This document shows positions 27,851 through 36,039 of a stretch of 64,000 bases of DNA, piece after piece. Within the stretch, counting starts at the first letter, position 1; every line of letters starts with the position of its first letter. The stretch is from Cloeon dipterum (Eukaryota; Arthropoda; Insecta; Ephemeroptera; Baetidae). Made by a program: the position numbers and the translations under genes. The notes beneath the pieces were generated by a model. That model did no database searches. It was not told the DNA's origin and saw only the letters and a program-made list of their open reading frames with translations. The stretch spans positions 25,920,545 through 25,984,544 of the forward strand of contig NC_088790.1 in NCBI RefSeq assembly GCF_949628265.1, in the 5' to 3' direction.

Positions 27851-28356
27851 TAATGTTCTCTCATTATTGAACAAACCTCTCTATCATTGTTTTTTATTTA
27901 TTTATTTAGTAATATTTTTGTTTCGGATGTGAGCAGGTATGTGGAAACGTTCCTTTGGTAACGGTGTTGCTTTAAAAAACATTAATGAGAAGCATCAATT
28001 CTTTAAACTGATATTATTCTCTGTTCATTATTTTTTTCTATTTCTATGCCTGCCGAACAAATTTGGAAAATTTCACTTACCCTTCAGTGATCTACTCTAC
28101 AATTTTAATACCTTATAAATAATTAATCAGCAAAAACCTACTCTAAAAAGAGATAAGTGAATATGTGAAAAATAATTCTAGCACGATCTCTACCAAAATG
28201 TACACTGATTTAGCCCCTTAGGCATCATGAACATGGATTAACATGATAAACTCTAGAATTTTGGCAAATCAACAATTAAAATTAAAATTTAGACCCACGA
28301 AATAAAATACAAAAATGTAAGGAGAGAAAATACGGCTATATTGCATCAAAAAACCT

Positions 28357-28785
28357 AACTGGGCAACAATTGAAAATTATTTAAATTGTTGGATGCCTTA
28401 AACAATTGAACGATAAACAATTTGTTCAACAATTTGCAACAGTAAAAAAGGACCTTTCTTACAGTAAAAATTCAAATTTTGCCGATTTTCTCCAAAATTT
28501 ACAGTGCTTGAACATATTTTCTTGGCATATTTCGATTCCTCTCGTAGAGATCTGTCCAACGGTGTATGCCACTTATTGGGGAAACTCTTGGTTTTCAAAT
28601 TAAATCGGATTCCAAGTAAGCAGACAGCCATTACCATTTGAAAAGCACGCTAACTTTCCAGCCAATTTTCTCAAAAAATTACAGTGCTTCTTAGGTCAAT
28701 TTAGGCTTTAACTGAATCCTAAGGGATGAGTTTATGCATTGGCAACAAGCATTTTCCAGGCTTTTTCAGTATCATTCATCTTTAA
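28357..28785 (+). mobile_element. TTAA-flanked MITE, family A copy 2
   Basis: Close sister of A1 over nearly its whole length, including GGGCAACAATTGAAAATTAT. The right end CTTT|AA site keeps TTAA at 28782-28785; the left inverted end is missing. Confidence 0.8.
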
Positions 28786-29089
28786 AAACTAAAAAATTTA
28801 TCATTTCAAATGGTTATAAAAACGTCCTAAACTTCTATTTATGTATTGCTTGAAAAAGGATTATATAATAAAAGATATGTAATATAATATAGGTATTGCA
28901 TAAAGTAAAACAAGGAGCGCTTTGAACAAAAGTTATGTCACCAATATTGGTCGTTTAGTGTTTTAAAAAATGTCTATTTATGGTACCTGCTCGTACATGG
29001 TTTATAAATTAAAATTTTATGGAATTCCAGAGACATTGATAAGACGCTGGAATTTGGAGGATTTTCGGCACTGAGTGTCATATTATCAT

Positions 29090-29221
29090 TATCAGAAGCG
29101 ACCATCTATGGCTGCTGGGGTCATGTGCTGCGAGGCTTTAAAGCGGCAGCAACCATCCTGCCGGCTCACTTTTTCCCCGCTCAAGTCATCTGCACCGCTC
29201 GTCGCTCCATCAGCGTACAAG
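29090..29221 (+). promoter_or_regulatory. Possible promoter and 5' exon of Sam-S
   Basis: A GC-richer island in AT-rich DNA ends in a good donor ACAAG|GTTCGTAG at 29221. It lies 445 bases before the Sam-S start codon on the same strand. The transcription start is not identifiable. Confidence 0.3.
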
Positions 29222-29665
29222 GTTCGTAGAAACGCGTTTAAACTTTGATAACCTTGACCTTAGAAACGTTCCACCCCTTTAAATAAAATGGAAAAAATAC
29301 GGCAGATTGAGATATATGTATATGCAATTTCTCAACAAGCGAGACACGCAGGTTGCATAATATATAACACTGGACCCTTCCCGAATAAATTCTTTTCAGA
29401 CGCGGGAAATTAATTTTGAATTGTTTGAAAGCAACGCATTTTATTTTCTCTCTTTAATTAATATTTAAATGTCATTAATGAGGCTCGCACTGCTTGTTAT
29501 CTCATCCTCACGCTCAATTTCATTCAATTCTGACGAAAGGCATCAGCGGCGCCGCGGTGAGCACCGCGAGTACTTTGGCCCTTTCGCTCTTTTTGCTGCG
29601 GTCCTTTCGGTGCTCACGTGTCGCCCGCTGTTAATGAGCATTTTGCTAATTGTCTAACCGGCAAA

Positions 29666-32600
29666 ATGCCTGCACGCGGACAGATGAACGGCTACAAGAA
29701 CCTGGCGGACAACGGCAATGGCACCCTCAGCTCCGACTCGTTCCTCTTCACCTCCGAATCCGTCGGCGAGGGACACCCAGGTACGTTTTCTTTTTATGTT
29801 CTTGTGTTTAGGGGTTGCGTGTTGTTATTTTTAAATCCAATCTTGGCTACCGGCTGCGACGAAGAAGAGCGCCTAAATTTTAAAAACTGAATAATTATTA
29901 TTTCTAATAAAACCAAACTGGTTCGTGGCATTATTTTTTAATGCGGTTTGACCAAACGAAATGTCAAATAATCACGCAACCTCAATGTTTTGATATCATA
30001 AACTCTCAGGTTTCTCAAAGGTATTTATTATTTTAAATTGATTTGCAGACAAAATGTGCGACCAGATCAGCGATGCCGTGCTTGACGCTCATCTGAAACA
30101 GGATCCCAACGCCAAAGTGGCATGTGGTGAGATCAAGTCGGATTTTTATTTCGTTACCCGTGTTGGATATACACTGCAGAAGTTGTTACGAAAACGAATC
30201 GAGCAAAAAATTCTCTTGAATGAATAACAGCGGCGTCCTATATATTTATCGCAACTAATTGTTTTCCAGAGACTGTTACAAAAACTGGCATGATTCTGAT
30301 ATGCGGCGAGATCACATCAAAGGCCAACGTGGACTACCAAAAGGTCGTCAGAGAAACAGTCAAACACATCGGTTATGATGATTCGTCAAAGGGTAAACAG
30401 TTTTAAAACCAACACCCAACAAGTGTATCGCACACAAACTTTGTTCCCGGCGCTCTTTTGATATTCGGTAAAACCCTTCAAATAATGCCTTTCGCAGGCT
30501 TTGACCACACGACGTGCAACCTTTTGATCGCGATCGAGCAGCAGTCGCCTAATATCGCCAAGGGCGTGCACGTCAACCGAGGCGAATTGGACATTGGTGC
30601 CGGCGACCAGGTCCAACATTACTCTTTTAAATAATGCTTACACATTTCGACTGGGGATTTAATTGCATCTATTGGGAAATATTGGAGCTAATTGCAATTT
30701 GGGTGCATGCGTGCTGTACTTTTGCAGGCCTCGACCACAAAGTGTGCGCCGTTATCAATATGATCGAGGGACAGTCCCCGGAAATCGCCAAGGGCGTGCA
30801 TGAAAATAAGACTGAGGAGGATTTGGGTGCTGGAGATCAGGTGATCAGTTTGCGGTGGAACCAATAAAAATTTATTAAAAATGCATGAAATTGGTATGCT
30901 AATTGTGCATGAAAATTTTCTAATAATTATTTACGGCTGTGAAAATGACGGGTTTTTTCGGGAAATAGTCAATTATATTTGGTGCAAATTGTGGAGCTAA
31001 ATGGGTGATAAAAACGATGTTTTTTTCTCTTTGCATGAAAATTTCCTGGTGAAAATTTCTACTGTAGCTATGACAAATCTACAGATTTTGATTAAATTTA
31101 AACTGTTTTTAGATGCTTCAGACGGTTTTAAGTTTGGATTAAATGACTTAAAATTGTATGATTCGTGCTAATTAGATGTTCCCGCAACGATTGGAAGCTG
31201 AGAAAAAAATAGTCGATCGTTTAAATTTCACAGCCCTGTATGAAATTTTCTATCTAAAATAATTTTGCATGAAAAATAACTATTTTGTGTTTAAATTAAA
31301 ATGCGAGATAAAAATTATTTGTTGCGGAAGGGAAAATATTGATTTTTGTAAGATTTTGTCTGAAATACTTCAAATTCTTGTTGAGCAAAAAAATTTAAAT
31401 TTCAATAGTTAGATTTGTTATAGCCGAAAAATTAAAAATTTTTAAACGGCTTGCAAATTGGGTCACATAAGAAGTTTTAATTTTTGACCCCGAAGAATTG
31501 TAGCGAAAAATCGAGCAAAAATTCATTCAAAATCCCACAAAAAAATAATTTAGTTTTAAATAATTCAATAAAGTGGCAGGGTTCGCAAAAACCCGCATTT
31601 TTCCCGGATAAAAACAGACTGCATTGCAAAAAACGGAGTTTTCTGCAATTTTGCGCATTTTTTCGAAACACATGCATTTTAATCGAAGACCAAAAATTGT
31701 CACGATGAATGATCACAAATAGGAATTTTTACAAATCAGTAAATTAGCCACTGGTTTCAATAAAAGACCAAAAATTTGTAGTTTTCCATAATATCTGACT
31801 TTTCGTAGCGCGAAATTTGACCTTTTCGGGGTTAAATTCGGAAAAACCCAAAACTAATGGTTTTTTCCAGCGGTTTTTTGCGCTAAAACCCAGTGGTGCA
31901 TTTTTGCGCATTCCAAAATTGGCAAACCCTGCTAAAAATCAGCTTTGATCAAATTGTTAAAAAAGCATGATTGCATGATTATGTAAAAATTAACTTGGAC
32001 TTTTTTGGAATATATTTGTTTATAATTATTTCCGTTAAAAATATATTAATTCAATTTACCCAGGGTATTATGTTTGGCTACGCGACTGACGAGACAGAGG
32101 AGTGCATGCCTCTGACGATCGTGCTGGCCCACAGACTCAACCAGAAGCTGGCCGACCTGCGCAGAGCCGGCATCCTTTGGTGGGCCCGGCCAGACTCAAA
32201 GTCTCAGGTATTTTAGACTAAAATTATATCCACCCCGCGTTCCAAGGCTTAGTTCTGCGTAGGTGACCTGCGATTACAAGTTCGTCAACGGCGCCTGCGT
32301 GCCCCAGCGGGTGCACACGGTGGTCGTCTCCATCCAGCACAGCGACAAAATCAGTCTTGAACAACTCAGGGATGAGGTCGAAAACAAGGTCATCCGCACG
32401 GTTATCCCTGCGAGGTACATCGATGACGAGACTGTCATCCATATCAACCCGTGCGGAGAGTTTATTGTTGGCGGACCTCAGGTGACTAATTTAATAATAA
32501 ATAAATTAGTCTTGACAGAGGGGCAGAAATTGCGATGAATTATTTAATTAATAATTGTTTTGGCATTAATTTCAAGTGAGACAAAGACTGTGTGACTTTC

Positions 32601-34063
32601 TTGGTCTTTGAAAAGGAGAGCATTTTTTCTCCACTCAAAAAACCCGCAGTGCAGTGGGTTTTTTCCTTTCAATTTTAACCAGTTTCTTGCAGGCAATGTT
32701 TGCATTTTTTGCACCTGTTTTAATCATTTTTCTAATTATTTGCTCTTGACCTTGGCTTGAAAAATTGTCAGAGATAAATTTTTGGAGAAATTGAGGCCGT
32801 AAATGGCAATTTAAAAGAAAAAATCTGCTCAGAAGAGGAAATTTTGACCACTCTGACCGCAAATTTCAGATTTTCGCAGGGGAAAAATGGAAAATATTAA
32901 TTTCTTGTGTAAGAAATTGGTAAAAATTGAGTGGTAAGCAAATGCAACCCTGCTCAAGCCTCTCTGGGGCAGTGAGTAAATACCAAATTTTGTATTTACT
33001 CGTGTGCAAGTCGATTGCTCAATATGAAATTTTTCCGCAAGCACAGCATAATATAAACTTATTCATTTTTGGGATTGCGCAAGATCCAGCTTGTTATTTG
33101 TTCAGGTTTATCGCGATGAGCAAAGAAACCCACGATGTTTTGCACAGCACTGATTTTTATCACCGTTTAATAACCTACAAATGACTTTCTTTTGTTTCCA
33201 TTCGTTATTATTTGTAAAACACAGACGTAATACAGCGATCGATTCCAGGGTGACGCTGGCCTGACAGGCAGGAAAATCATTGTGGACACTTATGGCGGGT
33301 GGGGTGCTCACGGTGGAGGAGCCTTTTCGGGAAAAGACTTTACAAAGGTGGACCGGTCGGCTGCGTACGCGGCCAGATGGGTGGCCAAGTCCTTGGTGAA
33401 GGCCAAGCTCTGCAAGAGGTGCCTGGTCCAGGTGAATAATGCTCGAGACATCATCATGTTGCAAAGGCTTACAATTTTCGTTCAGGTTTCATACGCCATT
33501 GGTGTGGCCGAGCCGCTGTCCATCACAGTTTTCGACTACGGCACTTCTGAGCGCACTCCTGATGAACTCTTGGCCATCGTCAAGAAGAACTTTGACCTGC
33601 GACCGGGGAAAATTGTCAAGTGAGTGCCATATTTTAATTTAGACATGTTGAATTATCAGTGTTCTGGATTTTGACCAGCCAGAGTGGTTCAAACCAGGCG
33701 ATTTTTGCCGGCATTTTTAAAATCGGTTTGAATTTATGGCTAATATAATTAATAAGTTTAATTTAAAATTCAAGGTGAAGTATTTTTACACTTAAATTAT
33801 TCTATTTAGTTACTTTCCTTATTTTAGATTTTAGCCAATTTAGCCGGCTAAAAACCAGCTTGGTTGAAATTATTTTTATCAAGCCGGAATTTCTTGAACT
33901 GAATATTGAATATTTGATTAGTTTTCCGCTGAAATAGGCTTAACTCGAATTTATTTGCAGGGAACTGAACCTAAGAAATCCAGTGTACCAGCAGACAAGC
34001 TCGTACGGCCACTTTGGCAGAGACATCTTCACGTGGGAGCAGCCCAAGAAACTGAATTTGTGA
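29666..34063 (+). CDS. Sam-S: S-adenosylmethionine synthase (methionine adenosyltransferase)
   Basis: Nine coding exons per transcript: 29666-29780, 30049-30126, 30270-30392, then either 30498-30610 (4a) or 30728-30840 (4b), then 32064-32207, 32263-32481, 33249-33431, 33486-33619 and 33961-34063, giving 403 residues. The enzyme makes SAM from ATP and methionine in the cytosol. Signatures visible: [12 protein letters not shown] (29-40, ATP/methionine site), GAGDQG (139-144), [25 protein letters not shown] and the glycine-rich GGGAFSGKD (286-294), and the C-terminal YGHFGRD. All junction phases agree. ATG 29666 has good context (CAAAATGC); an in-frame ATG at 29618 would add 16 residues. The two versions of exon 4 are described separately. 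Its 3' neighbour on the opposite strand is the SAM-using enzyme ZCCHC4. Confidence 0.97.
30498..30610 (+). other. Sam-S: Sam-S exon 4a (canonical-like alternative)
   Basis: 113 bases, phase 1 in and phase 0 out. It encodes [18 protein letters not shown] and on to GAGDQ, residues 106-143. The text is close to ordinary metazoan MAT enzymes ([12 protein letters not shown]). The donor is weak (CAG|GTCCAA). Confidence 0.9.
30728..30840 (+). other. Sam-S: Sam-S exon 4b (diverged alternative)
   Basis: Also 113 bases with the same phases, 117 bases after 4a. It encodes [18 protein letters not shown] and on to GAGDQ; 23 of 38 residues equal those of 4a. Splice signals are good on both sides (TTTTGCAG acceptor, CAG|GTGATC donor). 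The reading frame is intact, so this is not an obvious pseudo-exon. Confidence 0.88.
31020..31240 (+). repeat. Interspersed repeat, family F copy 1
   Basis: In the long Sam-S intron before exon 5. Similar blocks occur near 61345-61525: TTTGCATGAAAA, GTGAAAATTTCT-like, AGACGG...TTTAAGTTTGG and TTTAAATTTCACAG. The match is moderate and the boundaries are uncertain. Confidence 0.45.
31577..31931. mobile_element. TIR element with CAGGGTTCGC ends, family D copy 1
   Basis: Begins CAGGGTTCGCAAAAACCC and ends GGCAAACCCTG, short inverted ends of the CAGGG kind common in hAT-type MITEs. Inside it shares TTTTCTGCAATTTTGC and CCAGTGGTGCATTTTTGC with the copy at 62981-63306. No 8-base target duplication is visible, so the class is inferred. 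It lies in the long Sam-S intron. Confidence 0.7.
32636..32915 (+). repeat. Interspersed repeat, family E copy 4
   Basis: The longest of the four copies, in the Sam-S intron before exon 7. Its left part matches E2 and its right part, reverse-complemented, matches E1 and E3 (GTGAAAATCT-like, AAGAAATT). Imperfect inverted ends (CAGTTTCTTGCAGG and TTGTGTAAGAAATTGG) hint at a TIR element. Confidence 0.65.
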
Positions 34064-34106
34064 ACAGCTCATCAATGACATACACTGCAGTGATTTTTTG
34101 AATGTT

Positions 34107-34112
34107 TTTATT
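34107..34112 (-). terminator. Poly(A) signal for ZCCHC4 gene inside the Sam-S 3' UTR
   Basis: AATAAA on the minus strand, about 110 bases past the ZCCHC4 stop and about 45 bases past the Sam-S stop. Use of this site makes the two 3' UTRs overlap. Confidence 0.45.
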
Positions 34113-34223
34113 CATTTAACCGTCGAGTTTTTTAAGGAAATATATAAAATATCAAACTTGGCTTCACGCTTGCTTTGATTTTTATAACTGTCACCCTACA
34201 TTAATTAATTATTTATTTTAGAA

Positions 34224-36039
34224 CTAATCCTGACCTTTTTTGAGCTTCCGTGGAAAATTAGGGGTGTCCACCAGCTTTCTCTTCTTGTTGCTGCACTCAT
34301 GGGGCTGAGCTACGCATTTACCGCAGCTCCCACAGTGGATCCACCTAGGTTTCACACATCTTTGGCACGTGCTGCAGTGTTTGTACGTTCCACCAGCCTG
34401 TAAGCATAGGTTTTTCATAAAACAACAAACCGACCAAATAAAAAGCTCGCAGTACCTTTGACGGGCAGCTTCCACAAAGGTTGCAGTGAACATTGTCCTT
34501 GTGAACAAACCTCGAGCACTTGGAACAAAAATTGTAGCCCTCATCTTCGGGATGGACAATCAGATTCAACGGGGCATTGGTGAAAATTCTAACTGGAGAA
34601 CCAGTTTTCCTTCCTCTCCTACTATCTGTGTGTGTTTTAAAAGGTTTAGCCTCAATTCATCAAAATAACAATCAATATTTACCCGAATTAAACATTTTGT
34701 GGTCAGAGTAGTCAATTCGGTAGTCGAGCATCGCAGTTCCTGGCAGCGCATGAGAAATGTAGGCTTCCATAAAATAAGGGAACACCCAGAAGAACAGCAC
34801 GTCGCCGACGCAGCCCGTCTCTCTAATTTCGGTGACCAGCTTCTTCAAAGTGCCGGCGATGGGCTCGACTCTGCCTCCGAACGGCGGGTCAAGCAGAATC
34901 GCCACAGTCTCCTCGGTCGGCAAGGTTTTTAGGAAACTCTTAAATCTAGTCTTGCTTCTGGACCCATCAGGATCCTCCACCGTCTCCATGAAGTGGTGGT
35001 TGAACATGTTGTACCAACTGAAGTTGCTTCCGTAAAACACACCCTGACAGGAATATCATTAAATTAAGGAATAATTTTTTTTAAAGTGCCTTACATATCT
35101 CCAGTCAAAATCCAGAAGGTAGTAGTTGATTTTGAGCCTTTCTATCAGTGATGGGGTGCCAATAGAGATGACAGATTTCACACTGAGCCTGTCCAAAGTT
35201 GAGGTAATAAAATTGCAGGTCTGCTCCGAAAAGAAGAACTGTGCCTCCTTCGTGGTCTCTTTCATAGACTTCAACAGCTGACATAATTTGAAATTAGATT
35301 TATTTTTAAAAACCTTTTAGATTATTACCTTTGTAGGACGCCGAATTATATCTTTTTTAACCTGTGTCTCGATTTTGTGACCCTTGTGCTCACAATTTAT
35401 TTCAGATTTATCACAGATAAAACTGAAATTAAAATTAATAAAATTACAAAATTAAATTAGAGTTTAAAGAAATAATACCTGGTGCACGAGTGACAAAAAA
35501 TATTCTCTTTTCGTTCCTTCAGCATTCTTGATCTGAATTAAAAAAATTAATAAATTAAATTAATTAAATTTCTCTCCTCACTTTTGATATTTTTCCCAGA
35601 ACGAGACAGTCACAAGACTCTTGCACCTATCAGCCAATTTCTCGATTTTCTCCTTTTCCACGACCTGGTCTTGGTCTGTCGACACCGACACGAAAAACTG
35701 GCACTCCTTCCTCGACCTGAAGGCGGCACACGCGAAAAATCTGCTCGTTTTGCATCCCGCGGTCTTCTCAAACAATAACATCGGCCCTACAGCGTTTCAG
35801 TAGTACATTATCTTTGGAATAAGGTTAATAATATGGGGGACTCACACTTTCCGCTCACTCACACTTCTCGCTCTGATGGGAAGATTCAATGTTAATCCCT
35901 ATCCTAGCGAGAAGTGTGAGTTGGGCCAAAATGGTGAGTCTGCCATAATTATCATTGCGACTTGTTTACCATGCGGACATCGAGGACAGTTGTCTAGATG
36001 GTCGCTGGACAGGACTTTGTGGCTCTCGGCGCTTTTCAT
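34224..36039 (-). CDS. ZCCHC4: ZCCHC4-type rRNA N6-adenosine methyltransferase
   Basis: Eight minus-strand exons join in phase: 36039-35970, 35786-35582, 35532-35479, 35422-35329, 35277-35095, 35043-34683, 34625-34456 and 34397-34224, giving 436 residues. The family puts m6A on one adenosine of large-subunit rRNA using SAM. Visible: an N-terminal GRF-type zinc finger ([11 protein letters not shown] then [18 protein letters not shown]21, H23, C43, C52), a Rossmann-type methyltransferase ([19 protein letters not shown]; catalytic DPPFGG at 254-259) and, at about 345-415, the Cys/His-rich DHHC-like fingers ([29 protein letters not shown]). The protein stops about 20 residues after the last finger (ends KKGQD), without the CCHC knuckle that names the vertebrate protein. 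Intron 1 holds a 15-base perfect inverted repeat. It is tail-to-tail with Sam-S. Confidence 0.93.
35858..35920. repeat. Perfect 15-bp inverted repeat (stem-loop) in ZCCHC4 intron 1
   Basis: CTCACACTTCTCGCT at 35858-35872 is the exact reverse complement of AGCGAGAAGTGTGAG at 35906-35920, with a 33-base loop. A weaker third copy of the arm precedes it near 35840. Confidence 0.85.

Follow-up and report, generated by a model that had tools for sequence, protein, structure and literature searches.

A Candidate Mutually Exclusive Exon Pair Exchanging the Active-Site Lid of Methionine Adenosyltransferase in Cloeon dipterum

A Duplicated Coding Exon

In the insect Cloeon dipterum, a gene encoding methionine adenosyltransferase (MAT), the enzyme that makes S-adenosylmethionine (SAM), the methyl donor of the cell, very probably carries a mutually exclusive pair of coding exons, 4a and 4b, derived from a tandem duplication and each holding its own version of the loop that gates the active site. 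The gene lies on the forward strand of a window of 64,000 nucleotides (contig NC_088790.1, positions 25,920,545 to 25,984,544), to which all coordinates refer unless another contig is named; the name Sam-S is the label it received in a preliminary description of the same DNA. Exons 4a (30498-30610) and 4b (30728-30840) are each 113 nucleotides long, are read in the same phase, are separated by an intron of 117 nucleotides (30611-30727) and each have AG directly upstream and GT directly downstream, in agreement with that description. Translation of the two blocks likewise returns the 23 of 38 identical residues reported earlier, and the identity at the DNA level amounts to 72 of 113 positions. 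By the description in PMC3923563, mutually exclusive homologous exons share a similar length, sequence homology, and compatible splice sites and reading frame, and exactly one of the two enters the mature mRNA; the first three features are found in this pair, and the fourth is predicted from the reading frame.

Enumeration of GT-AG borders yields a protein of 403 residues with either 4a or 4b, as the frame stays open with each exon alone down to the TGA at 34061-34063. When the two exons are joined in one mRNA, a TGA is reached at 30761-30763 (codon 155), and when both are skipped, the frame runs into a TGA early in exon 5, at 32087-32089 (codon 114). These frames bear out the earlier statement that only one-of-two inclusion can give a full protein. 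A stop codon several junctions before the end of an mRNA is expected to elicit nonsense-mediated decay, and the double-inclusion and double-skip mRNAs would presumably be removed by this route.

The pattern of substitutions points to selection on both copies. With codon positions assigned by us from the exon phase, 4a and 4b are identical at 25 of 37 first, 28 of 38 second and 19 of 38 third positions. In a neutral test, each exon was allowed to drift in 20,000 simulations until it reached the observed DNA divergence. About one third of the products were free of stops, identity averaged about 14 residues, and the top values of 25 and 24 each came with a stop; none of the 20,000 simulations from either exon was both stop-free and identical at 23 or more of the 38 residues. 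Because no simulated drift remained open and this alike, both 4a and 4b are maintained as coding sequence, under constraint. The possibility that 4b is a decaying duplicate, rarely or never used, could appeal to its lower identity with human MAT2A over the whole block (22/38, against 27/38 for 4a); yet its borders are intact, its frame is open and its donor is better than that of 4a, and the codon-position pattern and the simulations speak against a dead exon, which makes decay extremely improbable. Further copies of the block were sought as well. No third copy was found in 28001-35500, and across the genome searched (190 Mb in 10 contigs) the 4b block matched 4b itself, 4a and one paralogous gene, these being all three of the candidates scored.

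What the Exchange Alters in the Enzyme

The exchanged block corresponds to residues 98-135 of human MAT2A and covers the entire gating loop, placed at 113-131 in PMC6850014 (PMC3793261 gives the loop as '113-122/135-144'), and the earlier assignment of the block to this loop is thus upheld. Both exons retain Gln113 and Ser114, two residues of the loop that matter for catalysis and that are invariant (80/80) among bacterial MATs; in human MAT2A, the S114A and Q113A mutants retain 2.5% and 75.6% of wild-type SAM production, respectively (PMC6850014). The bacterial set consists of 80 MATs retained out of 587 and is narrow, being nearly all Firmicutes and Chloroflexi by title; a side comparison used 26 MATs from viral contigs. 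The GAGDQ end of the block is also intact in both isoforms. The 15 residues that distinguish 4a from 4b fall unevenly, with 9 of 15 positions in 98-112, 6 of 19 in the loop 113-131, and none in 132-135.

The two exons appear to have diverged in different parts of the block. In the strand 98-112, 4a shares 10 of 15 residues with human MAT2A and 4b only 6; in the loop, the figures are 13 and 12 of 19. The net charge of the loop is 0 in 4a, -3 in 4b, -3 in a second MAT gene of this genome described below, and -4 in human MAT2A. Since loop charges and human identities of strand and loop differ by exon in this way, the divergence, as read from these sequences, is two-sided: 4a retains the strand and loses the loop charge, and 4b retains an acidic loop and alters the strand. 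The preliminary description had presented 4b as the exon with altered loop charge, a view that has to be reversed, as the outlier is 4a. It had also drawn attention to 4b as keeping Gln-Ser-Pro but carrying Gly in place of the preceding Gln of 4a; the substitution is there, but the importance given to it does not hold, because human position 112 is variable in bacterial MATs (mostly E58, S8, A4, K4, G3, R2; n = 80), and Gly occupies it in 10 of the 26 viral-contig MATs.

Other residues could be read as signs of a catalytically weak subunit, 4b or 4a, that tunes mixed oligomers with the other isoform or with the product of the second gene. At the 15 differing positions, the residues of 4b unseen in the 80 bacterial MATs are 99 L, 103 V, 109 M and 126 T, the first three of which are also unlike human (bacterial residues: 99 F80; 103 T76 S4; 109 A52 S27 T1). 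Those of 4a are 105 N, 106 L, 112 Q, 116 N, 125 R, 126 G and 128 L; those at 105, 112 and 125 agree with human MAT2A, and three others (106 L, 116 N, 128 L) do not (bacterial residues: 106 V77 I2 T1; 116 D78 E2; 128 E53 D16 and others). The viral-contig MATs are more diverged, with Asn at 116, for instance, in 1 of 26. The location of the MAT active site at the dimer interface (PMC3793261) would suit such tuning, but Gln113 and Ser114, shown to matter, and the GAGDQ motif are intact in both isoforms, and we regard a weak subunit as unlikely, if the least so of the rival explanations.

Gene Structure and a Second Gene

Both isoforms match human MAT2A over nearly the full length (E 2.9e-201 and 671 bits for the 4a isoform, 6.9e-197 for the 4b isoform) and score above the Pfam thresholds for all three S-AdoMet_synt domains, N-terminal, central and C-terminal (PF00438, PF02772 and PF02773). 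In the gene model, coding exon 1 starts at the ATG and spans 29666-29780, also on the basis of the MAT2A match; exons 2 (30049-30126) and 3 (30270-30392), like 4a and 4b, were set by AG/GT borders and frame, with the comparison of the blocks as additional support for the alternative pair. Downstream of 4b, an AT-rich intron of 1,223 nucleotides (30841-32063) is followed by exons 5 (32064-32207), 6 (32263-32481), 7 (33249-33431), 8 (33486-33619) and 9 (33961-34063), all on the forward strand, the last ending with the stop codon. Exon 7 has an alternative donor six bases upstream, at 33425, which keeps the frame and gives 401 residues, and this variant loses the residues QV present in human MAT2A. 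Tail-to-tail with the MAT gene, on the minus strand, lies a neighbour that resembles a ZCCHC4-like ribosomal RNA N6-adenosine methyltransferase (6uca_A, E 1e-20), a match obtained with 34672-35055, within a gene that is probably longer; a gene whose enzyme produces SAM and one whose enzyme consumes it would therefore stand end to end.

Pfam searches of the genome returned one further MAT locus, on the minus strand of contig C2 (approximately 18747171-18749663; locus L008, 5164-4505 and 3223-2672). It encodes a complete MAT of 403 residues in two exons with one intron of 1,281 nucleotides, at a position where the window gene has none, and all introns of the window gene are missing there, which would fit an old retrocopy. 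Its match to human MAT2A (685 bits) is above that of the 4a isoform. The paralog holds a single exon-4 block, which agrees with 4a at 22 and with 4b at 21 of 38 residues, and with distances so nearly equal the order of the exon and gene duplications cannot be read. A single block is as expected if the parent mRNA carried one of the two exons, or if the copying preceded the exon duplication. A search for MAT-beta with PF04321 returned one gene, whose open reading frame appears to be that of a threonine dehydrogenase; the absence of MAT-beta is not established by this.

How One Exon Might Be Chosen

Scored against the general donor consensus, the donor of 4a (CAG/GTCCAA) matches at 5 of 9 positions and departs from it throughout +3 to +6, and that of 4b (CAG/GTGATC) matches at 7 of 9. 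The poor donor weakly suggests that 4a may need an activator and that 4b would otherwise be favoured, and a regulated donor for 4a would be our simplest guess. Steric exclusion is unlikely, because the inter-exon intron of 117 nucleotides is longer than two other introns of the same gene, of 54 and 55 nucleotides.

Competing intronic RNA structures, with docking and selector sites as in Dscam, might also make the choice. What could speak for them is that TGGAGCTAA occurs once downstream of each alternative exon, at 30683 between 4a and 4b and at 30992 in the intron that follows 4b. Its complement, however, is not found in 29601-34100, and the pairings stay within the range of shuffled sequences: the introns i3 and i4 rank 9/60 with each other, i3 ranks 10/60 and 46/60 with two parts of i5, and i4 ranks 44/60 and 36/60 with two parts of i5. 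Reverse-complement alignments of the introns were equalled or bettered by 92, 267 and 194 of 300 shuffles, and the local fold of the exon-pair region is no better than shuffles (z = 0.42). Pairing between docking and selector sites is therefore unsupported in this one genome, and such structures seem very unlikely to govern the choice. Direct likeness between introns was reached or exceeded by 112 (i4-i5), 43 (i3-i5) and 17 (i3-i4) of 300 shuffle pairs, the last value being borderline and based on 12 nucleotides.

Some observations on these introns stand on their own. The TGGAGCTAA repeat is possibly a site for a splicing factor, possibly chance. The first and second parts of the 1,223-nucleotide intron pair with each other more strongly than in any of 60 shuffles (z -2.87), a self-pairing that involves neither alternative exon, and the same intron contains short repeats around TGCATGAAAATT. 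A search for known RNA families in 29000-34400 gave two matches, each below its gathering score.

Control by the METT-10/METTL16 methyltransferases was considered in view of the motif described at sams splice sites in C. elegans, Drosophila and Bombyx, published in the forms UACAGAAAC and UACAGAGAA (PMC8208822). Neither form is present at any of the 9 acceptors of the window gene, both alternatives counted, and TACAG occurs twice in 29601-34100, in neither case at an acceptor, so that motif control at the acceptors is not supported. A METTL16-family gene does exist in the genome (PF05971, C1:8004417-8005514, five pieces over the cut-off), an assignment at the level of the family. The acceptor of exon 3 (30265-30273) reads TCCAGAGAC, two bases off each of UACAGAAAC and UACAGAGAA, possibly a lost site and possibly chance.

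The missing motif also bears on the notion of an unproductive-splicing valve, whereby regulated double inclusion or skipping would send mRNA into decay and lower SAM synthetase output, the difference between the proteins being secondary. Both off-pattern products do run into an early TGA, the inter-exon intron is long enough to be spliced, so that double inclusion is physically possible, and worms and mammals are reported to control SAM synthetase output through splicing (PMC8208822). A valve requires no constrained second coding exon, though, and 4b is constrained; together with the 0/9 acceptors carrying either motif form, this leaves the valve quite improbable.

Probably Two Enzymes from One Gene

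In the explanation that we favour, each productive mRNA would carry one of 4a and 4b, and the gene would yield two MATs with a common catalytic core and 15 differing residues in the strand and the gating loop. Both isoforms would be expressed and, given the retention of Gln113 and Ser114, both would be expected to be active. They may differ in how the lid opens and closes and, through it, in the rate of turnover, the affinity for methionine or the release of product, according to tissue or stage. That the isoforms differ in function is likely, with less confidence than we place in the exon pair itself, and the earlier proposal of two SAM synthases with different kinetics or feedback is plausible on these sequences.

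Several points weigh against this explanation. The evidence is the DNA of one genome, and no mechanism enforcing exclusivity was found when intron pairing, folding and repeated elements were examined. The donor of 4a is not unique, as that of the constitutive exon 3 also matches at 5/9 and that of exon 8 forms a weaker duplex with U1 (-5.2 kcal/mol, versus -5.6 for 4a). Moreover, with 7 residues of 4a and 4 of 4b unseen in the bacterial set, either isoform could be impaired. The rival explanations, for their part, overlap partly with the one favoured here.

A broader scheme can be drawn, to which we assign a low probability, similar to that of the valve. The exchange of the lid might be a switch, conserved among arthropods, through which splicing determines SAM output in place of the absent N6-methyladenosine (m6A) acceptor motif; the neutral-lid and acidic-lid isoforms would sense methionine differently or be inhibited differently by the product, their ratio would shift with diet or tissue, and the nearly intronless paralog would provide a steady background.

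If both isoforms are made, they would constitute a natural enzyme pair differing only in the active-site lid and the strand leading there, and the role of the lid could be addressed in vivo by exon editing with the rest of the enzyme untouched. The pair raises the question of whether arthropods tune SAM supply by the kind of enzyme, besides its amount.

Comparison with Known Systems

A search of the literature for S-adenosylmethionine synthetase combined with mutually exclusive exons returned no paper, and no other paper on the exon pair was present among the matches listed, in a literature that was searched thinly for subscription journals. By term searches, Sam-S receives no mention in the main texts of PMC7954323, PMC3228551, PMC3303723 and PMC6071210, and splicing terms occur in PMC4704710 only in the reference list. 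The closest system is Drosophila melanogaster Sam-S, for which a mutually exclusive exon event is described, with inclusion of variant A rising from 0.10 to 0.36 after sertraline (PMC11765297); the results of that paper favour variant A, whereas variant B is the preferred one in its discussion. In both insects a SAM synthetase gene has two exons used, or in C. dipterum predicted to be used, one or the other. The Drosophila event was seen in RNA, whereas the C. dipterum pair is known from DNA alone, and the C. dipterum genome differs in having a second MAT gene. It is likely that the Drosophila event concerns the same pair as 4a and 4b, the available text of PMC11765297 being without exon coordinates or sequence. 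In contrast to the METT-10/METTL16 systems, which carry the acceptor motif (PMC8208822), the window gene has acceptors without it.

A similar situation is presented by the metabolic enzymes PKM1/PKM2 and PFKP, whose homologous exons are used in a mutually exclusive manner according to PMC7954323, which draws on the Kassiopeia predictions of Drosophila exons. There, too, the isoforms of a core metabolic enzyme are set apart by a single homologous exon, which changes their regulation, but the PKM and PFKP exchanges touch allosteric and subunit surfaces, whereas that of MAT would exchange the active-site lid. All in all, an exon swap is already on record for the fruit fly gene, and the C. dipterum pair looks like a further example rather than a new principle, to which the present analysis adds, beyond the preliminary description, the two-sided divergence of 4a and 4b and the extra MAT gene.
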